Assembly: GCF_003258315.1 (NCBI RefSeq)
Contig: NZ_CP030032.1
Coordinates: forward strand, 410,001-474,000
Direction: 5' to 3'
From: Bradymonas sediminis
GTDB taxonomy: Bacteria; Myxococcota_A; Bradymonadia; Bradymonadales; Bradymonadaceae
DNA length: 64,000 nt
In this document: positions 2,894-46,687 of the stretch, one piece after another
Layout: every line of letters starts with the position of its first letter
Numbering within the stretch: the first letter of the stretch is position 1
Notes under the pieces: model-generated
Database searches by the model: none
The model's input: the letters and a program-made list of their open reading frames with translations, nothing else
Told to the model about the DNA's origin: nothing
Program-made: the position numbers and the translations under genes

Positions 2894-2929
2894 ACGATAC
2901 TCACACTAATATTTTCTAAAAATACATAG

Positions 2930-3013
2930 TGCGGAAGAGAGGAATCGAACCTCCACGATGTTGCCACCACAGGCACCTGAAGCCTGCGCGTCTACCAGTT
3001 CCGCCACTTCCGC
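2930..3013 (-). tRNA. tRNA-Leu (anticodon CAG)
   Basis: The minus strand folds into an 84-nt class II tRNA. The acceptor stem is GCGGAAG/CTTCCGC with an A discriminator. The D-arm contains GGCGGAACTGGTAGACGC, the anticodon stem CAGGC/GCCTG encloses the loop TTCAGGT (anticodon CAG, decoding CTG), and there is a long variable arm and a T-arm with GGTTCGATTCC. CCA is not encoded. CTG is the codon expected to be heavily used in such GC-rich genes. Confidence 0.96.
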
Positions 3014-4738: not shown

Positions 4739-5923
4739 TCAGTCGCGGGTCTCGGACTGGGCGTCCAAGAAGTCGAGGACCTGCTGCTGAACCGCGTCAG
4801 AGACGCTGCTTGGGTCGGCCTCGACGTCAATATCAATCATAAAATGGGTGGTTTTGGGCAACTCGACGATGTCGACCGAGCCGGTTTCGGCATCCTCGGC
4901 GTTGGCCGGGCGCGTCTTTTCTTCGAAGGCGCGCGCGCTGCCGCGCGGGAGTACTCCGTCGTGGCTGCCGAAGATGGCCAGGATCGGGGCGCTCGTTTGG
5001 CTGAGTTGCGCGCTCGCCCGCTGATGCAGGGCGAAGAAGCCGGACCAGGTCTTCGCGGGGGCGCCGAGGAGCTCGTCTTGGTCGAAATCTCCGGCGCGAA
5101 GGGCCGCAAACCCCTCGCTTTGCAGGGTTTGGGTCTTTTGAAGTTCTTCGGTCTGTTGGGCCAGGAGCGTGCCTTCGGTCGTGTTGCCCGCCTTTTCTCG
5201 CTCCTTTTGCAGATGCTTGAGCGAGGTGTCGATCTGATGGGAGATGATCTGGTCGATCGGGTAGGGGCTCGGCGCGAGCAAGAGCAGGCCGGCGGGGTTA
5301 ACTTTGGGGGAGAGCGCCAGGGCGAGGTCGGCTCCCTGGCCGTGGCCGATGATGAAGATCTGGGTGGGATCGACGCGCGGGTCCGTGCGCAACTTCGCGA
5401 CGGCCGCCGCGGCGTCGGCTTCAAGCGCCTCGGCCAACTCCGAGCGATGGGATTCGACATAAGCGCGCGGGTAGGTGCACCAGGGCCGCCCGCCTTTGAC
5501 GCAGGTGCGCTTGTCAAAGCGCATCACCATATAGCCGTTTTTGACCAGGTGCTGGGCGATATCTTCGTAGACCGCGACTTCGACCGGAAGTTGGACGCCG
5601 AGGCCGGTCTTGAAATGCCCGCGCCGGTCGTGCGGGCCGGTGGCGTGCAGGATGAGCACGGCGGGGCCGGGGGCCTGGCGGGTGTCGGGGCGCTCGATGA
5701 CGCCCGAGAGCGTGTCGCCGAGCGACTCGAAGGTGATCGCCTCGGCGAGGATCTCGCGCACCGGGCGCTCGGGCTCTTCTTCGGGTTCGGGCTCCGCTTC
5801 GGGGGCTTCGGGGGCGGCCTGGAGCTGCGCGATGGGCTGCGAATCGACCTTTTCCTGGGCGTCAAAGACGCTGCAACCCGAGGCCAGGAGCAGGGCAGTA
5901 CAGGTCAGCAGCATCCGGGTCAT
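4739..5923 (-). CDS. Alpha/beta-hydrolase-fold lipoprotein lacking the nucleophile Ser
   Basis: The start is placed at ATG 5923 because this gives a clean lipoprotein signal (MTRMLLTCTALLLASGC); an in-frame ATG at 5968 would add 15 polar residues. The mature protein has a Glu/Pro-rich stalk (PEAEPEPEEEPE), then an alpha/beta-hydrolase domain: GPAVLILHATGPHDRRGHF strand/loop, YMVMRFDKRTCVKGG, the nucleophile-elbow region IFIIGHGQGADLAL, then an Asp (IFGSHDGV) and a His (PKTTHFMI) at the expected triad positions. The elbow normally reads GHSxG; here the Ser is Gly (residue 195 of this start), so classical hydrolysis is not expected. It lies downstream of the HD phosphohydrolase gene on the same strand, possibly co-transcribed. 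Confidence 0.8.
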   Translation of the reverse strand: MTRMLLTCTALLLASGCSVFDAQEKVDSQPIAQLQAAPEAPEAEPEPEEEPERPVREILAEAITFESLGDTLSGVIERPDTRQAPGPAVLILHATGPHDRRGHFKTGLGVQLPVEVAVYEDIAQHLVKNGYMVMRFDKRTCVKGGRPWCTYPRAYVESHRSELAEALEADAAAAVAKLRTDPRVDPTQIFIIGHGQGADLALALSPKVNPAGLLLLAPSPYPIDQIISHQIDTSLKHLQKEREKAGNTTEGTLLAQQTEELQKTQTLQSEGFAALRAGDFDQDELLGAPAKTWSGFFALHQRASAQLSQTSAPILAIFGSHDGVLPRGSARAFEEKTRPANAEDAETGSVDIVELPKTTHFMIDIDVEADPSSVSDAVQQQVLDFLDAQSETRD

Positions 5924-6010
5924 CTGGGCGGACCCGAAGGGGTTTCTAAAATCAGCACGCTCGATCATATCGCAGGCTCAGCATAAAAATAGAAGCAGAA
6001 GACCAAAATC

Positions 6011-7486
6011 TCAGGGGCGCAATATCTCATCGAGGAGCAATTCGTCGACCGGCGATTTCTCGCAGTCGCTGCGCGCTTCTTTTTGCAGGTCGGCGGCGAC
6101 GCTGGGCTCGACGAAGATGCGGATCTTTTTGACCACCATCATAAAGTCGTCCTGGATGCCGGCGACCACCCGCGACAATTCGTGCAGCGGGTAGTGTGTG
6201 CGCCCGCTGGCGCCGGGGTAGACGACCTCGATGGTTTCGAGCTTGTCTTTGTCGCGCGGGGGCGTGTCGATGATGATGTCGGCCGGGTGCAAGGGGCGCC
6301 CGACGCGCGCGCTCAGGCGCACGCGCAGGCGGTCGTTGAGCGCGTAGACGTCGGGCGCGTCCATCTCGTAGATGCGCGCGTAGGCCTCTTGTTTGCGTTC
6401 TTCGGAGTAGACGCGGCTGAAGGTGGCGATGCGCTTATAGAGGCGGCGCCGGTTGTGGGTCAGCCCGGCGGTGAGATAGCGCGTGGCGCTTCGCGCGGGG
6501 GTCTGCTCGCGGATCCAGTCGAGCAGGCGGTCGTCGTCGTGGCTGAGTAATTGGGTCAGGAACGCGTCTTTTGAGACCGCGCCGCGGCTGTGGAACGCGG
6601 CCATCGCCCCCTCGATCATCGCGCTTGCCGCGCGCACGGTGTGGTGCCAATAGGCTTCGCTAAACATGGTATAGCGCCCGAAGATGAACATCTCGGCGGG
6701 GACCTTTCCCTTGGCGTTGATCGCGATGCCGTCCTCGTTGTGATTGAGCGTGAGGCTCGAGAGCAGTCGCCCGCGGTCGTAATTTCGCCCGTAGGGCACG
6801 CCCATATGGTGGCTGTCGCGCTCGAGATAATCCATCTTATCGGCGTCGATAGACCCGGAGATGATCGAGCGCAGGATGCGGTCGGTGGGCGTTGCGTGCG
6901 GGCCAAGGTCGCCGGTGCACAGGTTGATAACGCGCTCGGGGTCGACGCCCCATTGCTGGCGCAGGATCGCGGCGATGGTCGGGCCCTTTTTACCATGTGG
7001 GGCGGCGCTAAACAGGTTGGCGAATTCCCCGCGAATAATGCGTCCGCCGACGTCCTCGTGGCGGGGCGTGTCGCGCCCCTTCAGGTGCAGCGCCTCCAGG
7101 CTGTGGGCGAAGGGGTAATGCCCGATATCGTGGAGCAGCCCGGCGGCCAGCACGGTGAGCAGGTCTTCTTCGGTGGTAGACTCGGCGAAGGCCGGCGTGC
7201 GCAGCAGGGCGCTCACGCACATGCGCACACAACTATAGACGCCCAGGCTATGCTCGAAGCGGGTGTGCACCGCGCCCGGGTAGACCAGGTGGGTCGGGCC
7301 GAGCTGGCGCACGCGCCGCAGGCGCTGAAAGGCCGGGTGGTCGACGACGTCCTGGACGCGCCGGCTCATCAGGATATTGCGAAACTCGGGCACGCGAATC
7401 GTGCCGTGGTGCTCGAAGCCGCCGCCGAGTTCGGGGAGTCGCGTCGCGGCGCCGTGGGGAATTTCCAGCGGAGTATCTTCGGGCAT
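6011..7486 (-). CDS. HD-domain phosphohydrolase (dNTPase/SAMHD1-like)
   Basis: This is a roughly 491-residue cytoplasmic protein. The N-terminal third carries the complete HD metal-binding signature of the YwfO/SAMHD1-like branch: VHTRFEHSLGVY, then LLHDIGHYPFAHSLE, and later the Asp in SIDADKMDYLERDS. HPAFQRLRRVRQLG is also characteristic. Relatives hydrolyse deoxynucleoside triphosphates or other phosphate esters, but the substrate cannot be read from the sequence. ATG 7486 (MPEDTPLEIPHG) is chosen; an upstream ATG at 7543 would add a Pro/Arg-rich extension. It is divergent from the giant lipoprotein gene and 87 bp upstream of the hydrolase-like lipoprotein. Confidence 0.88.
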   Translation of the reverse strand: MPEDTPLEIPHGAATRLPELGGGFEHHGTIRVPEFRNILMSRRVQDVVDHPAFQRLRRVRQLGPTHLVYPGAVHTRFEHSLGVYSCVRMCVSALLRTPAFAESTTEEDLLTVLAAGLLHDIGHYPFAHSLEALHLKGRDTPRHEDVGGRIIRGEFANLFSAAPHGKKGPTIAAILRQQWGVDPERVINLCTGDLGPHATPTDRILRSIISGSIDADKMDYLERDSHHMGVPYGRNYDRGRLLSSLTLNHNEDGIAINAKGKVPAEMFIFGRYTMFSEAYWHHTVRAASAMIEGAMAAFHSRGAVSKDAFLTQLLSHDDDRLLDWIREQTPARSATRYLTAGLTHNRRRLYKRIATFSRVYSEERKQEAYARIYEMDAPDVYALNDRLRVRLSARVGRPLHPADIIIDTPPRDKDKLETIEVVYPGASGRTHYPLHELSRVVAGIQDDFMMVVKKIRIFVEPSVAADLQKEARSDCEKSPVDELLLDEILRP

Positions 7487-37931: not shown

Positions 37932-38410
37932 TGGCAGACCTTCGAAGTTTATATCAAGAGGTGATCCTCGACCATAATAAGAACCCGCGTAATTTCGGGG
38001 AGCTCGAGGGGGCCAGTCACCACGCGCACGGGGATAATCCGCTGTGCGGCGACTCCTACGATATCAGCGTGCTCCTGGGCGAAGACGGCACGATTGAGGA
38101 TATCCGTTTTAGCGGGTCGGGCTGCGCGATCTCGAAGTCTGCGGCGTCCATGATGACCCACCGGGTCAAGGGCAAAAAGGCCGAGTATGCCGAGGTGTTG
38201 GTCGATGAATTTCGGCAGATGCTCGTCGGTGAGCTCGACCCGGAGGCCGAGGATAATGAGCTCGGGCACCTGAAGGTCTTTCTCGGGGTCGCCGGGCGCC
38301 CCGAGCGCATCAAATGCGCGGTGCTCCCCTGGCACACGCTGCGCGCCGCGCTGCGCGGCAAAGAGGTCGTCTCGACCGAAGGCGACGCGGACCCGCTCGC
38401 CGAATCATAA
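37931..38410 (+). CDS. sufU: SufU sulfur-transfer protein
   Basis: This 159-residue SufU/IscU-fold protein has three conserved Cys (NPLCGDSYDI, GSGCAISKSAAS, RIKCAVLPWHT) and the GSGCAIS insertion segment of SufU. The zinc-bound form accepts persulfide from SufS. The start is coupled to the end of sufS by a one-base overlap, as in Gram-positive and many delta-proteobacterial suf operons. Confidence 0.95.
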   Translation: MADLRSLYQEVILDHNKNPRNFGELEGASHHAHGDNPLCGDSYDISVLLGEDGTIEDIRFSGSGCAISKSAASMMTHRVKGKKAEYAEVLVDEFRQMLVGELDPEAEDNELGHLKVFLGVAGRPERIKCAVLPWHTLRAALRGKEVVSTEGDADPLAES

Positions 38411-38498
38411 GGCCATAAAATAGAGCGAAAGCTCGAGCCGTCATTGGCAATATGCGATTCGACACGAACCGTATTTTCGCCCCCTAAGGAGGTACGAG

Positions 38499-39071
38499 AT
38501 GAAGATTGAAGAGATTGAATACACGCCGAACCCCAACGCGATGAAGTTCATCCTGGACCAGGCGCTGACGCTCAACGGACGCACGCGCTCCTTCACGGAT
38601 ATGGAGAGCACCGAGGGGGTGCCGCTGGCCGAGGCGATTATGCGCATCGACAGCGTAATTTCGGTCTTTTTTGCCGACCGCTGGCTGTCGGTGACCCAGG
38701 ATGGCACCGCCGACTGGCATCAACTGATGCGCGATATCGCCGACCCCATCCGGGCGGCCTCACTCGACGACGCGCGCCCCATCGACGAAGAGGTCGGCGG
38801 CGTGGAGGCCGGCGGCATCGACGACGCCGAGGCCGGGTTTGATGACCCGCGCATGGAGGCCATCGAGATGGTCATCAACGAGCAGATCATGCCGTATTTG
38901 CAGGGCGACGGCGGCGGCCTGCAGATCAAGGCGCTCATCGATACGCAGCTGATGATTCGCTACGAGGGCGCCTGCGGCACCTGCCCGTCGGCCATCGCCG
39001 GCACGCTTAAGGGCATCGAGAACCTGCTCAGAAGCCAGGTGGACCCCGACCTGACGGTCATCGCGGTCTGA
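38499..39071 (+). CDS. nfu: Nfu-type Fe-S carrier protein
   Basis: The protein has 190 residues with a textbook Shine-Dalgarno (TAAGGAGGT). The N-terminal Nfu_N domain (EYTPNPNAMKFILDQALTL, VFFADRWLSVTQD) is followed by a Glu-rich linker and the NifU-like C-terminal domain with the cluster-binding CxxC (ACGTCPSAI) and PYLQGDGGGLQIK. It carries 4Fe-4S clusters from the SufBCD scaffold to client proteins. The last roughly 230 coding bases plus the terminator recur about 5 kb downstream (see 43776-44146). Confidence 0.95.
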   Translation: MKIEEIEYTPNPNAMKFILDQALTLNGRTRSFTDMESTEGVPLAEAIMRIDSVISVFFADRWLSVTQDGTADWHQLMRDIADPIRAASLDDARPIDEEVGGVEAGGIDDAEAGFDDPRMEAIEMVINEQIMPYLQGDGGGLQIKALIDTQLMIRYEGACGTCPSAIAGTLKGIENLLRSQVDPDLTVIAV

Positions 39072-39133
39072 GCGACGACAAGCTTGCGCCGGGCCCAAAC
39101 GCCCCGCTTCACGCGTTGTGTGAGGCGGGGCGT
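38846..39133 (+). repeat. Direct repeat, copy 1 (nfu 3' end plus terminator)
   Basis: About 288 bp covering the last 75 codons of nfu and its terminator recur at an offset of exactly 5010 bp (43856-44143) with only about seven mismatches. No such repeat is seen elsewhere in the window. Confidence 0.9.
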
Positions 39134-39136
39134 TTT
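39097..39136 (+). terminator. Rho-independent terminator of the suf operon
   Basis: CGCCCCGC (39100-39107) and GCGGGGCG (39125-39132) with an extended inner stem are followed by TTTT. The same structure recurs at 44107-44146 as part of the nfu repeat. Confidence 0.88.
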
Positions 39137-39176
39137 CGTGTTCGCGAACCAATACTCATCAAGCCGTAGTATTGGC

Positions 39177-40811
39177 TCAATGGTAGGGCATGCACTCAAG
39201 CTCGATAAATTGGGTGGGGCCATAGGCATCTTTAGAGATATAAAAACCAACGACCCCGTCACCTGCCGTGGAGCAATGAATTGTTGTAAGTGGTCCCTCA
39301 GGCCTTGCTTGACCGATTTGTTGCGTCGCGTCTTCGTATTCATACTGAAAATGGTCGGGATCCACAGTCATGCCAGCGCGATAGGGCGTTGTCGCGCTAA
39401 GCTTTTCGAGACTCGTCGGTACGCGGCACGGATATTCTCTATAGTCGTCATGATCCGGGTCTAAGCATGGATTGAATTTGGGAGTGATTGGTTTTCGAAT
39501 ATCAACACATCGCAGCGCGGTGACGCCTACAATATAGTCCGAAGGGCCGGAACCGGTTGCCTGGACCTCAAGGCCACGCATGACAAAGCCGGGCGGACAC
39601 ATCTGAAATGGCATGGGGGCGATGCGGTCGACGGGGGTTCCATCTTCGAGTTTATCCTCGGTGGTTAAGCGCATGCTCGTGTTGAGGAAAGACAGGGGTT
39701 CACTCTTATAGGTATCCCAAAAATCGTCATCCCCGTACATATAAGTCAAACGTGTGAGCAGGTCGCGTCGATGATCCCGGCGCTCCACCCCGATGAAATC
39801 CCAATTCATCGACCACTCTCGCCGACTATGAGGCCCACAGATGATCCCAAAGCCGCCGAGGGCGGTGTCCGTTTTGCTCGCGAGATTCTTTTGTAGTGGC
39901 GCTCCCATCACACCGAGCCCCTGGACATCATGAACACGTGCGGGGTTGCCAGTTTTGGCGAGTTTGTTGTTTGTGCAGCTTAGATGCCGAACCTTTTTAG
40001 GATCCCGCGATGAGCCACAATTTGAACCGACACAACCTTCTTGGTTGCTGTCATGGTCGTCAAAGATCGGGGCGTCGGGGTCGTGGCAGTGATATTTCTC
40101 GCATCGCGTTTCGTTCGCGTGCTCAGGGTTCGCGCAATATACGACGCATTCGTCGTAACAAGAGTCTGGGTCCCCCTCGGTACATTCATCCGTGCCGGAG
40201 CGAAAAGGCTCCCCATGATTTCCCTGCGCGTTGTTGCGTGCATCCTGATGCTTGAGATCAAATCGATTGAAAAATGAGTTATAATCGGGTGAATCGAAAG
40301 GCACCTCTATGACTTCTGAGCAGCTATTGGAGACACCACCACAGCCGCTATAAATGCCCGCCCAATTTTGCCAGCTAGAGTCGAGCCCGCCGTCGAGGAA
40401 TAGGGCTGAACCGCTCGATCCGCCCCGCGCGTCCGTATTGGCGATAAACTCCAAAACATAATTGCGTGTCGTTCCATCAATTGCGGTGAGTTGTTGGGGG
40501 ACGGATACAAATTTTCTAAAAACGCCGTCGTAGCTCACGAGCGGCACGCGAAAGTCAGGGTTTGAACTTCCTATGGGTATATTATGCTGAATCTGTATTG
40601 CATGACCGTCTTTTTCAAACCAATCATCGGACAGAACAGCCGGCGGTTTAAAGTCAAAAAACATGCCCGGCCCTAATATCTGCCATTTTGGCAGCTGTCG
40701 AAGCTCTTCTATTAATTTGGGTTTGACTTTTATTAAGGCAATATCTTCGTCATCGCCCTCCCAGTTTTCAATTTCCTGCCATTGCCATTGTTCAAATAGA
40801 TTTTGATAATA
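39177..40811 (-). pseudogene. C-terminal fragment of trypsin-like protease gene cut by IS
   Basis: This is the 3' portion of a protease gene interrupted by the IS4-type element. In the rejoined gene the fragment starts at 40811 (codon 173, YYQNLFEQW) and supplies the catalytic Asp (DDEDIALIKV) and Ser (ARGGSSGSALFLDGG), then a long Cys-rich C-terminal extension (NHGEPFRSGTDECTEGDPDS, CEKYHCHDPDAPIFDDHD, MPFQMCPPGFVMRGLEVQAT) unlike a minimal S1 protease. It reads in the same phase as the N-terminal fragment at 42371-42886. Without a signal peptide or the His residue it cannot be an active exported enzyme on its own. A TTG at 40868 inside the IS could start a cytosolic remnant. Confidence 0.85.
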
Positions 40812-40822
40812 GGGTTGCCTTC
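40812..40822. repeat. 11-bp target site duplication, left copy
   Basis: GGGTTGCCTTC abuts the left end of the IS and is repeated at 42371-42381 at its right end, encoding the duplicated Arg-Gln-Pro codons in both protease fragments. An 11-bp duplication fits IS4-family elements. Confidence 0.9.
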
Positions 40823-42370
40823 TCATGATCATACACATCTCATAACCCCACTTGCCAGCGGACGCCAAATTTGATCGAATCCGGCGGGATCATCTGCTTT
40901 TCTAGAAAGGACCGCCATGCAGCAAGTGACCGAAATACTCGCCGATATTAGCTTGTCCGAAGAGGTCGCAGACGCCCCCTTGGGCGACGTGCGACGCAGT
41001 CAAAGGTTCGCCCGGATCATGGAGTCGCTCGGGCGCCAACCCGAGGCGAGCATCCCGGAGGCAATGGGGGGATCTAGCGCGTCTGGAGGCGTATTATCGG
41101 TTGATGCGAAACGAGGCGGTCGATCACTTCAAGTTGCTTGAACCTCACTTCGACGCGGCACGTCGGCGCACCGAAGATCTTGGGGCGGCGTTGGTGCTCC
41201 ATGACACCTGTGAGATCGCGTTTGACATCCACGATGAGCCGGCGCGAGAGCACCTCAGCAGGCTCAGCGCGAATCGCCAGGGCTTTTATTGGCACGCCTC
41301 TTTGGCCATTTCGGATGGCCCATTTCGTGCCCCGTTCGGTCTGGTTGCAAGCCGCCCATTTGTCCATGCCTCCGAGCTTGAAGACGACGAAACACGCGCA
41401 TTTTGGGAGCAAATCGACGGGGTGATGGACAACGAGCAGCGCCGCTGGATGGAGGCGGTCGAGCAGAGCGAGGCGCGCCTTGAAGATGTCCCCAAAATCA
41501 TCCACGTCATGGACCGCGAGGCGGACGATTATCTGACACTCTTTCCGATGGATATGTCCGGCTACAGCTTCGTGATTCGGATGACCTGGGATCGAAATGT
41601 GTGCGACGGTCCGAGGCGCTGCGACTTTCGCAAGCTAAGCGATGAACTCGATGAGGTTGCCTGGCGAGATGAGGCACGAACGACAACTTTATCGCCGCGG
41701 CCCAAACGCAAGGCGACTCTGGGGCACCCGGTGCGCCGCGCGCGGATGGCGCAGCTTAAAGTGCGCGCAAAGCAGGTCGAGATTCGCCGCCCAGACCGCA
41801 TTAAGGCCGCCTACGGGCCCGCAGGCCTCAAAGTAAATGTCGTTGAAGTTCTCGAGGTTGACCCGCCCGCAGATGAAGATCCGGTGCGATGGCTTCTGGT
41901 CACCGACCAGCCCATCGAGGCCGATGAGCAGGTGTGGCGAATCGTCGATTGGTACCGCGCGCGCTGGGTCATTGAGGAGTTTTTCAAAGCCCTGAAAACC
42001 GGCGCAGCCTACACCAAATTGCAACACAAACGCGCCGCGACACTGCTCGCCGCGCTCTCCGCCAAAGCTGTGGTCGCCTGGCACCTATTGGTGCTGCGCC
42101 ATCTCGGGCGCACCATGGGCGAGGCCGACCCGAGCCTTGTTGTTAATGCCCTGCAACTCGAAGTGCTGCGCGCCCTGAAGCCCAAAAAACTTGGGGCTCA
42201 CCCGACCGCCGCCGACGTGATGAGGACCATCGCTGAGCTTGGGGGGCACCTACCACAGAACGGTCCGCCGGGCTGGCTAGTGCTGGGGCGTGGATGGAAG
42301 CATATGCGTGAAATCGAGAAGGGATACCGGTTGGGATTTCAGCGGGGTAAAAAGATGTGATCAATCATGA
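40823..42370 (+). mobile_element. IS4-family insertion sequence, 1548 bp
   Basis: The terminal inverted repeats are TCATGATCATACACATCT at the left and, read inward, TCATGATTGATCACATCT at the right (14 of 18 identical). The element is flanked by an 11-bp direct target duplication. It contains one transposase gene occupying nearly the whole element, carrying the IS4 YREK signature. It is inserted in the protease gene, with its transposase on the opposite strand to the target gene. Confidence 0.92.
40917..42360 (+). pseudogene. IS4-family transposase with frameshift in a G6 tract
   Basis: The start at 40917 (MQQVTEILADISLSEEVADA) gives the usual IS4 N-terminus (LGDVRRSQRFARIMESLGRQPEASIPEAMG). 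At a run of six G (41066-41071) the frame must shift to continue as DLARLEAYYRLMRNEAVDHF; dropping one G restores a 480-residue protein. The second part has the DDE core: VLHDTCEIAFD, HVMDREADDYL, and the YREK motif in WYRARWVIEEFFKALK (Tyr-x2-Arg-x3-Glu-x6-Lys). Either the copy is inactivated, expression needs ribosomal slippage, or the run is a base-count error. Confidence 0.85.
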
Positions 42371-42381
42371 GGGTTGCCTTC
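42371..42381. repeat. 11-bp target site duplication, right copy
   Basis: GGGTTGCCTTC directly follows the right inverted repeat of the IS and matches 40812-40822 exactly. Confidence 0.9.
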
Positions 42382-42886
42382 GAAAGATTGCCCAGTCATC
42401 CAACCCCAGCGCTTTAAGCCTAAGATACATATACCAGTCGCTCTTCAGTGCTGCTAATCCGCCGTTAGAGTCCGGAGTCGACCAATCCATCTCGAAAGTA
42501 ATATATTGAGCCTCTATGGCTTCTGACGCTGGTAAGTGGGTTTGGTCATATATAACGTGGTCGGCAGAAAATAGAAGTCCTGCACTCGTTAATGTTGCGG
42601 AACCAAATAGCCGAGGTCCTGATTTATATTTTAGACGAACGTTTCCTGAGGTTTTGGATAGTGTCGCCAGTTGCCACCATTTATCCCTTTTCGAATCCGA
42701 ATTGATTTCCGTTTCGGCCCGATCGACAAGTTGATCCCGCTCCTCATAGTCGTCTCCAAAAATCACTTTTTGACTGACGATTCCTGTTGATAGAGTATTT
42801 TCTTCATTTGCACAGCCACTTGAATAACTTACAGAAATGAAAACTAAAATGAGAATGTGCGCGAACAAAATGTGTTTTGTTTTCAT
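42371..42886 (-). pseudogene. N-terminal fragment of trypsin-like protease lipoprotein
   Basis: This is the 5' portion of the interrupted gene. ATG 42886 overlaps the stop of the upstream lipoprotein gene (ATGA). The signal peptide ends in a lipobox (HILILVFISVSYSSGC). The mature part holds the strand before the active site (SGPRLFGSATLTSAGLLFSA) and the catalytic His110 in FSADHVIYD. The frame breaks at the IS end after RRQP and reaches a stop inside the element (42365-42367). Rejoined with the segment ending at 39177, the original protein would be about 716 residues with a complete His110/Asp195/Ser305 triad. Confidence 0.87.
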
Positions 42887-43701
42887 TGATTTTGCCGTGT
42901 CCAGTTGTCCTCGTTTGAAATAACACATCCTGTGACAAGTGGAGTGTAGAAATTAATCATGGCGTCTCCATAAATCGGGAATTCTGGCTCGGGATAATGA
43001 TAGGCGAGCGCTTTTTTTGATGGGAGTGATTCAAAGAGTATATCCACAACAGAAAATTGTTGAATGACTTCTTCCTTTTTGACGTTTGATACGCGGCCAC
43101 ACGTTTGGTCGAATATTTCAATGTGATGAAGAGCCGAGTCCGGATATCCGTTACCGATATCTGATCGAAAATGTGCGATCCCCAAATATCCTCCGATTTC
43201 AAAACGCCAAAACCAATAATACTCACTTTCATAAATCGCGTGACTATAGTCACAGCTTTCATTGGGTCTACGGACCTCAAATCGATGCCAAATCTCCGAG
43301 ACCCTCGGTAGGCGAATATAAATGTTGAAATTTGTACATGACTGCATAAATCCGGGTGTGCAATCGTTATTTTCGTTTGTTATTCGCCTATCCGTAATGA
43401 AGCCAACTCTTCCATAATACCCGAGCTCCCTGGGATCTTCGAAAATGTCGGTGGAGCATTCGGGTCGAAGTAGTAATTCAGAAGACCATTGGATTTGAAC
43501 CTCGTCGGCGGGGTGGTTAACCAGGCATACGGGCTGGGCGAATACATCGACATCCGGCAGGTCAACGTCGACAAGCGCCCCTTCGGGGCAGTGATTGGTA
43601 TTGAGTTCCCAAGCGCCGGGTTCATCGGAGGCGAGGGGTGCGCTACAGCCGGCTGAGAAGGATAGCAGCAGTATCGCTAACTTGATGGAATTGCTTCGCA
43701 T
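42883..43701 (-). CDS. Lipoprotein of unknown function, co-transcribed with the protease
   Basis: This roughly 272-residue protein starts at ATG 43701, which yields a lipoprotein signal (MRSNSIKLAILLLSFSAGC); an in-frame ATG at 43746 would add 15 residues. The mature part is beta-rich with many Cys and aromatic residues (NHCPEGALVDVDLPDVDVF, WHRFEVRRPNESCDYSHAIY, SEYYWFWRFEIGGYLGIAHF). No known domain is recognised. The stop codon overlaps the protease start (ATGA at 42883-42886), so the two surface proteins were made together. AT content is visibly higher than in neighbouring genes, in line with foreign origin. Confidence 0.7.
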   Translation of the reverse strand: MRSNSIKLAILLLSFSAGCSAPLASDEPGAWELNTNHCPEGALVDVDLPDVDVFAQPVCLVNHPADEVQIQWSSELLLRPECSTDIFEDPRELGYYGRVGFITDRRITNENNDCTPGFMQSCTNFNIYIRLPRVSEIWHRFEVRRPNESCDYSHAIYESEYYWFWRFEIGGYLGIAHFRSDIGNGYPDSALHHIEIFDQTCGRVSNVKKEEVIQQFSVVDILFESLPSKKALAYHYPEPEFPIYGDAMINFYTPLVTGCVISNEDNWTRQNQ

Positions 43702-43775
43702 GATTGGAAACCCCGGCTTTGTGTGAGTTGTTTTTGTTTTGTGCAACCAAGTTTGGATTGCTAGATGTGCGACGT

Positions 43776-44081
43776 CAACGCGCGCTGAGGTTCATCGTGG
43801 ATCACCGATATGGAGGGCACCAAAAGAGTGCCGCTGGCCGAGGGGGCTTTGACTACCCGCGCATGGAGGCCATCGAGATGGTCATCGCCGAGCAAATCAT
43901 GCCGTATTTGCAGGGCGACGGCGGCGGCCTGCAGATCAAGGCGCTCATCGATACGCAGCTGATGATTCGCTACGAGGGCTCCTGCGGCACCTGCCCGTCG
44001 GCCATCGCCGGCACGCTTAAGGGCATCGAGAACCTGCTCAGAAGCCAGGTGGACCCCGACCTGACGGTCATCGCGGTCTGA
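43776..44081 (+). pseudogene. Truncated, decayed second copy of nfu
   Basis: The 3' part from about 43856 is nearly identical to the end of nfu, with the CxxC-containing segment GSCGTCPSAIAGTLKGIENL and the same stop. Upstream, short collinear blocks match the N-terminal half (AGGTTCATCGTGGATCA, then CCGATATGGAG and GTGCCGCTGGCCGAG) but about 40 bp and about 215 bp between blocks are missing. It lacks a plausible start with ribosome-binding site, though ATG 43863 could give a 72-residue NifU-domain peptide. Its role is probably that of a leftover of a duplication or insertion event. Confidence 0.8.
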
Positions 44082-44143
44082 GCGACGACAAGCTTGCGCC
44101 GGGCCCAAACGCCCCGCCTCACACGTTGTGTGGGGCGGGGCGT
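43856..44143 (+). repeat. Direct repeat, copy 2 (nfu 3' end plus terminator)
   Basis: This is the partner of 38846-39133 at 5010-bp offset in the same orientation. Differences are a cluster of three near 43887-43895, one at 43980 and three in the terminator hairpin that largely keep base pairing. Confidence 0.9.
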
Positions 44144-44146
44144 TTC
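44107..44146 (+). terminator. Second copy of the nfu terminator
   Basis: The hairpin CGCCCCGC/GCGGGGCG followed by TTTCTTT matches the suf-operon terminator, with three substitutions that keep most pairing. Confidence 0.75.
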
Positions 44147-44254
44147 TTTGCGGTGGATAGGTGCTTCAGGCGATTTGTGCACCGTGCGCGCGATGTGCAG
44201 CAGCAATGCGAGGTGGCATAATCGACAGCGGCTTCAGCCTGGGTGTCGTGGAGT

Positions 44255-45433
44255 TCAAGGCGCTGGTTTGACGATCAACGTCCCCACCGAATTCGAGTCG
44301 AAGTGGGTCGGAAAGACCTGCGGTTCGTCGGGGCAATCCGTTGTATAGACCTCCGTCGAGGTCGAATTGATGATATAGACGCCCGGTTTCGTCGGGGCGT
44401 TAAAAGTCGTCCGGTGTTGCTTTGAGACGCTCGAGACGTCGTTGCTACCAAGGCATTGGGTGAAGACATTGTTCATGCCCACATACGCCTGCGCGTAACA
44501 ACCCATACAATAGGGGCGCCATTTTGTTTCAACCTCCAACGCGACCTCGGCACCCGGTGACACCGTGGCCACCCGGGCTTCCGTGTCATCTAAGCTAATG
44601 TGATTATAGACCAGGTTGTGCGCATCCAGCGACACGCGCAGGGGCATGTCGGCTAGGGTCGGCGGCCCAGACTCCGCGACGACCAACACGGCGAGCGAAT
44701 TATCGCGAAAGCTCGCGTCCGAGACGCTCCTGGTGAAATCACAGCGCTGGTCGCGGCGGGCGCGCAGGTTGATGACATAGGTCCCGGTTTCGTATGGGGC
44801 GTCGAATTCCCACGTTTCGTCGAATTCGTTTTCTGTCGGGCCGTACGAGAGGCAGGTCGAGGTCTGGTCGGCTATGCCCACATAAAACTGCGCGTTTCGT
44901 GCATCGCCTGGTTCTGTGGGCGACCAACTTCCTTTGATTCGAAGTTTCACGCTCGCACGAGGGGGAACCTGCGCGGTGGTGTTGGCGTTGTCATCCAACT
45001 CGACCAGGTCAAGCTTTAAGTTCAGCCCCTCTCCGGAATATTGAATGGGTCTCGGCAGCGTGCAATAGGCCGCGCTTGCGACCGGCGGCGGGCAGTCAAG
45101 GCTGCTGCCGTCACAAGTTTGGGCTTCGTCGCATAAGCCACCCGCGGACTCGCGGCACACGGTCCCCGCAGTGGCGGGGCTGAGAGCACATCGTCCTTGC
45201 TCACAGGTCGCGACGCTGCACGGGCCCGACGCGGCTGAGCACTGCGCGTCGTCGGCGCATGCCGAGCCGATGAGGTCGGGCTCGGAGGTATCCGGGCCGG
45301 CGTCGGCTTCAGGCGATGAATTGCCCGAGGTCCCATCGATGAGCGCGCAGCCGGGTCCCATTGCAAATATCAATAGGCACGCCCACAGCGCGCCAGCGCC
45401 TGTGCGCTGCGGACGGGAGAAATAATTCTTCAT
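44255..45433 (-). CDS. Cys-rich lipoprotein with two beta-sandwich domains
   Basis: This is a roughly 392-residue protein. ATG 45433 gives a lipoprotein signal (GALWACLLIFAMGPGC). A Ser/Asp linker leads to a Cys-rich module (CADDAQCSAASGPCSVATCE, CRESAGGLCDEAQTCDGSSL). Two similar beta domains follow: LKLDLVELDDNANTTAQVPP ... GTYVINLRARRDQRCDF and LVYNHISLDDTEARVATVSP ... GVYIINSTSTEVYTTDC. Both share a start LDDxxAxVxxVxPxA, a Cys around SxCLSYG/TQCLGSN and an ending GxYxIN, so they are internal duplicates. It is probably a surface-exposed binding protein; no enzymatic motif is seen. It lies directly after the nfu repeat. Confidence 0.75.
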   Translation of the reverse strand: MKNYFSRPQRTGAGALWACLLIFAMGPGCALIDGTSGNSSPEADAGPDTSEPDLIGSACADDAQCSAASGPCSVATCEQGRCALSPATAGTVCRESAGGLCDEAQTCDGSSLDCPPPVASAAYCTLPRPIQYSGEGLNLKLDLVELDDNANTTAQVPPRASVKLRIKGSWSPTEPGDARNAQFYVGIADQTSTCLSYGPTENEFDETWEFDAPYETGTYVINLRARRDQRCDFTRSVSDASFRDNSLAVLVVAESGPPTLADMPLRVSLDAHNLVYNHISLDDTEARVATVSPGAEVALEVETKWRPYCMGCYAQAYVGMNNVFTQCLGSNDVSSVSKQHRTTFNAPTKPGVYIINSTSTEVYTTDCPDEPQVFPTHFDSNSVGTLIVKPAP

Positions 45434-45664
45434 GCGTCGGCTAAGCCTTGGTTGCATCAGGGGGCTCCGAGTGAGGCGACTAGAAAATAAAAGTCCAATA
45501 TCAACCCGCGTAGTTAGTATAATTCGGGTCGCATCGCCAGTGTAGGCGCAGGAGAAATATGTTCAGCTTCTCTTCACATCGCATCGGGTGTGCATAGGTT
45601 CCGCCCGCGCATCAGGTCTGATGCTTTTGATGACTCACTGTTTTTTAACTCAAAGGGATACAAT

Positions 45665-46687
45665 ATGTCTGACTCAACCAACCGTCGCATCGTGCTCGCC
45701 AGTCGTCCGAAGGGAGAGCCGACGGCGGATAATTTTCGCATGGAGGAGCAGCAGATTCCCACGCCCGCAGACGGCGAGGTGTTGCTCAAGGTGAAGTATC
45801 TGTCGCTGGATCCCTATATGCGCGGGCGCATGAGCGCAGCCAAATCCTACGCTGCGCCGGTCGAGATCGGCGACACGATGGTCGGCGGTACCGTGGCCGA
45901 AGTCGTGGAGTCTCGCCACCCTAAATTTAAGGCCGGCCAGACCGTCTTGTCCTATTCGGGCTGGCAGGAATACGCGATTTCGAATGGGAAAGACCTGCAC
46001 GTCTTGGACCCGGACGCAGCGCCGCCGAGCACCGCGTTGGGCGTGATGGGGATGCCCGGATTTACGGCCTATGCGGGGCTTTTGACCATCGGGAAGCCGA
46101 AAAAAGGCGAGACGGTGGTGGTGGCCGCGGCGACCGGGCCGGTGGGCTCGGCGGTGGGGCAGATTGCGCAGATCAAGGGGGCGCGGGCGGTCGGCATCGC
46201 CGGGGGCCCCGAGAAGTGCAAGGCGTTGATCGAGGAGTTTGGCTTCGACGTGGCCCTGGACCATCGGGACCCGAATTTTGCGCAGAACCTCAAGGAGGCG
46301 GTGCCCGAGGGCATCGACGTCTATTTCGAGAATGTCGGCGGCGCAGTGTGGAAGGCGGTGCAGCCGCTGCTCAACGACTTCGCGCGCATCCCGGTATGCG
46401 GGCTGGTCGCCCATTATAATGAGGTCGCGCCGCCCGAAGGCCCGGACCGTCTGCCCGGGTTTATGGGGCAGATGCTCTCGAAACACCTGACCTTCCAGGG
46501 CTTTATTCAGAGCGATTTTATCGAGCAATATCCCGAGTTTCTCAAAGAGATGGGCGGCTGGTTGGCCCAGGGACGCGTGAAATACCGCGAGGATATTCGC
46601 GAAGGCCTCGAGAACGCCCCCGAGGCGTTTATCGGTATGCTCACCGGTGGCAATTTTGGCAAATTGATCGTCAAGGTCTCCGAATAA
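45665..46687 (+). CDS. NADP-dependent MDR-family oxidoreductase (CurA/prostaglandin-reductase type)
   Basis: The 340-residue zinc-free medium-chain reductase has RIVLASRPKGEPTADNFRME, EQQIPTPADGEVLLKVKYLS, LDPYMRGRMSAAKSY, the nucleotide-binding loop VVVAAATGPVGSAVGQIAQI, and FDVALDHRDPNF then GIDVYFENVGGAVW. Family members reduce the C=C bond of alpha,beta-unsaturated ketones and aldehydes with NADPH. ATG 45665 is chosen; an in-frame ATG at 45590 would add 25 residues without homology. It stands alone; nothing in its surroundings indicates a pathway. Confidence 0.92.
   Translation: MSDSTNRRIVLASRPKGEPTADNFRMEEQQIPTPADGEVLLKVKYLSLDPYMRGRMSAAKSYAAPVEIGDTMVGGTVAEVVESRHPKFKAGQTVLSYSGWQEYAISNGKDLHVLDPDAAPPSTALGVMGMPGFTAYAGLLTIGKPKKGETVVVAAATGPVGSAVGQIAQIKGARAVGIAGGPEKCKALIEEFGFDVALDHRDPNFAQNLKEAVPEGIDVYFENVGGAVWKAVQPLLNDFARIPVCGLVAHYNEVAPPEGPDRLPGFMGQMLSKHLTFQGFIQSDFIEQYPEFLKEMGGWLAQGRVKYREDIREGLENAPEAFIGMLTGGNFGKLIVKVSE

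Follow-up and report, generated by a model that had tools for sequence, protein, structure and literature searches.

In the genome of Bradymonas sediminis, a member of the Bradymonadales, a group that has been described as predatory, the 3′ end of nfu and the terminator behind it recur downstream in the same orientation, and the two copies enclose a short operon and an insertion sequence (IS). Some genomic islands insert at a gene’s 3′ end and, in doing so, rebuild it. The locus thus poses the question of whether the repeat was left by such an element or goes back to a duplication of nfu itself. The sequence analyzed here, referred to as the window, is a stretch of 64,000 nucleotides corresponding to positions 410001–474000 of a single-contig genome of 5,045,683 bases; unless otherwise stated, coordinates are those of the window. 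The two nfu copies and the repeat that they share are positioned as follows.

38499..39071, plus strand: nfu, intact; at the end of the sufBCDSU-nfu cluster, with Pfam domains Nfu_N and NifU, found in the same place in relatives
38838..39134, plus strand: repeat copy 1 (nfu 3′ end and terminator), 9 of 297 positions mismatched against copy 2
39097..39135, no strand: symmetric terminator hairpin behind nfu, between the convergent nfu and peptidase-like genes (inverted-repeat listing and sequence)
43848..44144, plus strand: repeat copy 2 (3′ end and terminator of a decayed nfu copy), from DNA self-comparison

A repeat search of the window returned a direct repeat of 300 nt at 97% identity with a start-to-start distance of 5010, and the ungapped alignment of 38838–39134 with 43848–44144 contains 9 mismatches over 297 nt. 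Seven of the nine lie within 38846–39133, in agreement with the initial annotation, which had described a repeat with about seven mismatches in 288 bp, 5010 bp apart. Whole-genome DNA searches place the repeat sequence at these two positions, with no third site found, and also reveal that the two terminators match one another on the opposite strand. The upstream copy was correctly described as a complete gene: it encodes a full 190-aa Nfu with Pfam matches to Nfu_N (2.2e-20) and NifU (1.3e-15). The downstream copy retains the NifU domain alone (Pfam), in an open frame of 125 aa that starts from TTG (43704–44081). In the terminator hairpin, the three differences between 39108–39123 and 44118–44133, as judged by eye, all seem to be wobble changes that leave the stem paired.

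Homology of the downstream copy to nfu extends beyond the 3′ end.

43782..43843, plus strand: 5′-half remnants of the decayed nfu copy, in two scraps

The first scrap, 43782–43801, corresponds to nfu 38538–38557 (17 of 20 positions identical), and the second, 43802–43843, to nfu 38593–38634 (36 of 42). The two match nfu in order, which bears out the earlier description of a remnant with collinear deletions. The scrap region scores 54, a value reached in none of 2000 shuffles (shuffle maximum 30). The first scrap taken alone is marginal: its score of 27 is reached in 0 of 2000 shuffles (maximum 25) and by 1 of 639 other window stretches. Relative to the intact gene, the downstream copy lacks the start, one internal stretch of 35 nt, and another of 198 bp. 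The larger of these, which would lie between the second scrap and the 3′ block, is bounded by the octamer GCCGAGGC; nfu contains this octamer at 38628 and 38826, 198 bp apart, and nowhere else. Slippage between short repeats leaves such a pattern; among arbitrary nfu junctions, 63 of 72,500 share at least 8 bases. The ends of the first deletion share 4 bases, no more than chance. A deletion bounded by the GCCGAGGC pair would be unexpected had the 3′ end alone been duplicated. The downstream copy is derived from nfu sequence beyond the 3′ end as well.

These remnants bear on the reading in which an integrative element used the 3′ end of nfu as its target and restored that end, leaving boundaries of the attL/attR type. 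The direct repetition of a gene 3′ end and terminator on either side of an operon of foreign composition speaks for such an element, but the distal copy contains 5′ scraps, the 297-nt repeat carries mosaic mismatches where a short exact core would be expected, and no recombinase besides the IS transposase was matched among the island proteins. An element of this class has a site-specific recombinase of its own and a distal repeat confined to the 3′ end, neither of which was found here. No tRNA attachment site is present, the sole tRNA of the window lying at 2929–3013. With 5′ remnants in order at 43782–43843, the largest deletion on an 8-bp repeat, and no integrase match, we set aside the suggestion in the initial annotation that an element had rebuilt the nfu 3′ end and regard it as highly improbable.

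The differences between the copies were compared with those between functional genes. Of the 15 coding differences, 8, 2, and 5 affect the first, second, and third codon positions, respectively, whereas in three functional nfu pairs of one other genus the third position accounts for 44 of 51, 49 of 51, and 40 of 45 differences (Fisher 1.5e-4, 8e-7, and 7e-5, respectively, for the third-position excess of these pairs over the window copies); against more distant relatives (seven chosen from 18), the third-position share is 47%. In terms of codon positions, the differences between the window copies look as expected without selection, i.e. neutral. Residue 158 is Ala in 18/18 relatives and Ser in the downstream copy, and residue 116 is Asp in 16/18 and Tyr in the downstream copy. 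At residue 127, the Asn of the intact copy is common to the nearest relative only, and the Ala of the downstream copy occurs in none. The codon-position pattern and the changes at conserved residues together mark the downstream copy as the derived, unconstrained one.

Could the downstream copy nonetheless be a functional short Nfu that consists of the C-terminal NifU domain only? Its open frame and complete NifU domain would allow this, but on its 5′ side the sequence is pieced together in shifted frames and no ribosome site stands out, two of its three residue changes affect positions conserved in relatives, and the good domain match is explained by the homogenized tract described below. We consider a short functional protein very unlikely. 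A second functional nfu paralogue is likewise disfavored by the residue changes and the neutral codon-position pattern.

The mismatches between the copies are unevenly distributed.

38886..39107, plus strand: homogenized tract, putative gene conversion, from mismatch counts, shuffles, and Fisher test

This tract contains a single difference among its 222 sites, as against 17 among the 137 other aligned sites (Fisher 4.8e-7). When all 359 aligned sites are shuffled, 222 consecutive sites with no more than one mismatch appear in 0 of 20,000 shuffles, and within the 297-nt block alone the same tract length is reached in 14 of 20,000; both figures assume mutability equal along the gene. The pattern is consistent with the notion that the tract was homogenized by gene conversion, which we consider probable. 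Since conserved Nfu residues are present in the tract, the intact gene was most likely the donor and the pseudogene the recipient. On the conversion reading, the repeats would have recombined without loss of the island, and on sequence grounds excision by crossover across them would be plausible. Literature listings on gene conversion between repeats contained nothing on this locus.

Between the copies lie two genes on the minus strand, one of which is in two pieces.

39177..40812, minus strand: C-terminal part of a putative secreted serine-peptidase-like lipoprotein gene, with Asp and Ser motifs by eye and relatives in the same class
42381..42886, minus strand: N-terminal part of the same peptidase-like gene, with a lipoprotein-type signal and a His motif by eye; the N-terminus of one relative matches at 4e-5
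42883..43701, minus strand: small lipoprotein gene, 272 aa from ATG, first in the operon (ORF list), without a Pfam match
44255..45457, minus strand: next gene outside, encoding another lipoprotein, convergent onto the second terminator (ORF list, Pfam)

The ATG of the peptidase-like gene overlaps the stop of the small lipoprotein gene (ATGA). The DNA between the copies has a GC content of 0.523, or 0.486 minus the IS, and is AT-richer, as the initial annotation had it. In terms of third-position GC (GC3), the small lipoprotein gene (0.47) and the C- and N-terminal peptidase-like pieces (0.40/0.535) are outliers relative to 29 other long window ORFs (0.80 ± 0.055, minimum 0.645), whereas the nfu fragment has a GC3 of 0.92. 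This composition makes it probable that the two-gene operon is of foreign origin. Searches of 95 genomes returned one weak relative of the small lipoprotein besides itself, and matches to the C-terminal peptidase-like piece in four genomes, own included. A profile of three full-length relatives matched 9 of 39 genomes, own included, in a patchy distribution over 8 of 27 genera. Neither the C-terminal peptidase-like piece nor the lipoprotein, the two of three operon pieces queried, has a plasmid match. PADLOC assigned none of four proteins of the region to a defense system, and no RNA family was matched in 38000–46000.

Conserved His, Asp, and Ser motifs are visible, by eye only, in the alignment of the peptidase-like family, and on these the protein may be called serine-peptidase-like. 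A significant family or fold match of the kind that marks a trypsin-like serine peptidase was not obtained: neither the window pieces nor the relatives’ profile matched a peptidase family in Pfam, NCBIfam, or PDB sequences, and the family has no Pfam or NCBIfam match above cut-off. The product of 39177–42886 and its five compared relatives look like secreted lipoprotein-type proteins and have a C-terminal domain with conserved Cys. For the lipoprotein encoded at 44255–45457, a disintegrin-like match stays below threshold (4.2e-6; 27.9 bits, cut-off 35.1).

The composition of the operon also bears on a Campbell-type capture, in which a circle carrying the operon and a related, divergent nfu recombined into the resident nfu and the homogenized tract is the crossover region. 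Such a capture has the appeal that a single event would account at once for the flanking repeats and for an identical tract with divergent sequence on each side. A functional donor gene should, however, contribute third-position differences, and no excess of these is present, the differences resembling decay; the operon GC3 of 0.40–0.535 against 0.92 in the nfu fragment makes a common donor unlikely; and the two operon proteins queried are without a plasmid match. We regard this alternative as quite unlikely and retain duplication of nfu as the preferred reading.

The peptidase-like gene is interrupted by the IS, which splits its coding sequence in two.

40813..40821, no strand: left target-site duplication (TSD), GGTTGCCTT, from sequence
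40822..42371, plus strand: Tn5-type IS4-family IS, 1550 bp, with the transposase in two frames, 40917–41141 and 41101–42360
42372..42380, no strand: right TSD, GGTTGCCTT, from sequence

The transposase matches Tnp_DNA_bind (1.6e-11) in Pfam and NF033590 (3.6e-65) and NF049926 (1.2e-7) in NCBIfam, and its N-terminal part matches the NCBIfam model IS4_FS_Nterm. Together with the 9-bp TSD and inverted ends of 19 bp, alike at 15 of 19 positions, the family transposase places the element in the Tn5/IS50 group of the IS4 family. Its frame shifts at a G run in 41060–41080, which may reflect decay or a programmed frameshift. At the DNA level the IS has a single copy in the genome, which rules out a composite transposon, where two copies would flank the interval.

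The nfu locus was compared in relatives, all of which belong to genera other than that of the window genome; among named public contigs, those with the closest nfu genes come from Lujinxingia vulgaris, a Lujinxingiaceae MAG, and MAGs labelled Myxococcales. Wherever the nfu region was compared (18 of 18 relatives), nfu is single and follows the suf genes, and the expectation of the initial annotation that relatives carry one nfu and no island holds in every one of them. A second close nfu was found in none of 38 other genomes searched; in one of these (G014), nfu is split over two contig ends. Neither an empty site nor an intermediate stage was seen among these other genera. The family members lack the island and have a downstream neighbor of nfu different from that in the window: in 11 of 18, icmF follows nfu directly on the same strand. 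Among the other seven, four have no icmF within ~5–10 kb downstream and three have sequence that ends within 2.6 kb. The icmF of the window genome lies at 3,701,537–3,704,776 of the genome, 3.25 Mb from nfu, and 19 kb around it compared with the window gave no clear nfu remnant, only short, weak matches (E 0.02–0.08). The site behind nfu is a lineage-specific synteny break.

The gap between nfu and icmF, measured by hand, is 143–539 bp in 8 of the 11 relatives; the remaining three have gaps of ~1.2, 2.7, and 4.5 kb. In G010 (L043 ~5192–6328), the gap contains a tandem repeat block that is open in several frames. In G005, the 4.5-kb gap encodes a 777-aa protein of the peptidase-like family, of which no other member was found in this genome; its gene runs opposite to nfu. 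The initial annotation had named relatives with the same protease operon but no nfu repeat as an observation that would count against it, and G005 comes partway: a distant peptidase homologue is present and nfu is not repeated in the gap, but the homologue has ~26% local identity to the window protein and no match to the lipoprotein partner accompanies it. The window peptidase piece matches a protein of G001 better than it does the G005 member. Neither nfu nor icmF was found near the other compared loci of the family, most of which are a few kb long. The genes downstream in the window (lipoprotein, oxidoreductase, GGDEF, and thioredoxin-like) likewise had no counterpart near nfu in the relatives compared, and paralogues overwhelmed a search of the genomes with the GGDEF protein. 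The two peptidase-like members beside nfu may reflect chance or a weak hotspot. A stronger version holds that, in this bacterial family, DNA has repeatedly landed behind nfu and that the nfu duplicate could be a by-product of repeated recombination there; the three longer gaps and the presence of a peptidase-like member beside nfu in two genera, the sole one found per genome, are the basis for this idea, which we consider rather unlikely.

Taken together, the data are probably best rationalized by duplication, decay, and conversion of nfu, with foreign insertion between the copies. All or nearly all of nfu would have been duplicated with its terminator in direct orientation; the suf-linked copy would have stayed functional, and the other would have become a pseudogene, losing its start, 35 nt, and, by slippage between the two GCCGAGGC octamers, 198 bp. 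Collinear homology to the parent gene beyond the retained domain, no sign of selection in the codon positions, and single-copy outgroups are consistent with this origin. A putatively foreign two-gene operon, encoding a lipoprotein and a secreted serine-peptidase-like lipoprotein, would have come to lie between the copies and then been broken by the Tn5-type IS, and later recombination would have overwritten ~220 nt of the pseudogene with sequence of the intact gene while the island was kept. On this reading the locus would reflect routine wear of the genome rather than an element that excises itself. The alternative offered in the initial annotation, in which foreign genes came to fill a tandem duplication, stands in its outline of a duplication, given the collinear 5′ scraps and decay; as to which came first, either order of duplication and insertion would fit.

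The locus is a warning that a duplicated gene 3′ end around foreign DNA need not mean an integrative element; 5′ scraps, codon-position counts, and the mismatch pattern separate a decayed and converted duplicate from a 3′-end-restoring insertion. It also points to a break in synteny after the suf cluster and to a family of putative secreted proteins that is patchily distributed and lacks annotation. In terms of known systems, the locus resembles 3′-end-restoring islands in the direct duplication of a gene 3′ end around foreign-looking DNA, whereas it has no integrase, no exact short core, and 5′ sequence in the distal copy. The IS resembles Tn5/IS50-like IS4-family elements in its DNA-binding and DDE transposase parts, 19-bp ends, and 9-bp TSD, and differs in its transposase frame, broken or frameshifted at the G run, and in its single genome copy. 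The closest likeness is to a decayed duplicate with partial gene conversion, with direct copies, one constrained and one apparently decaying neutrally, and a homogenized tract; unlike a plain decayed duplicate, the copies here are 5 kb apart and hold an operon of foreign composition and an IS between them.
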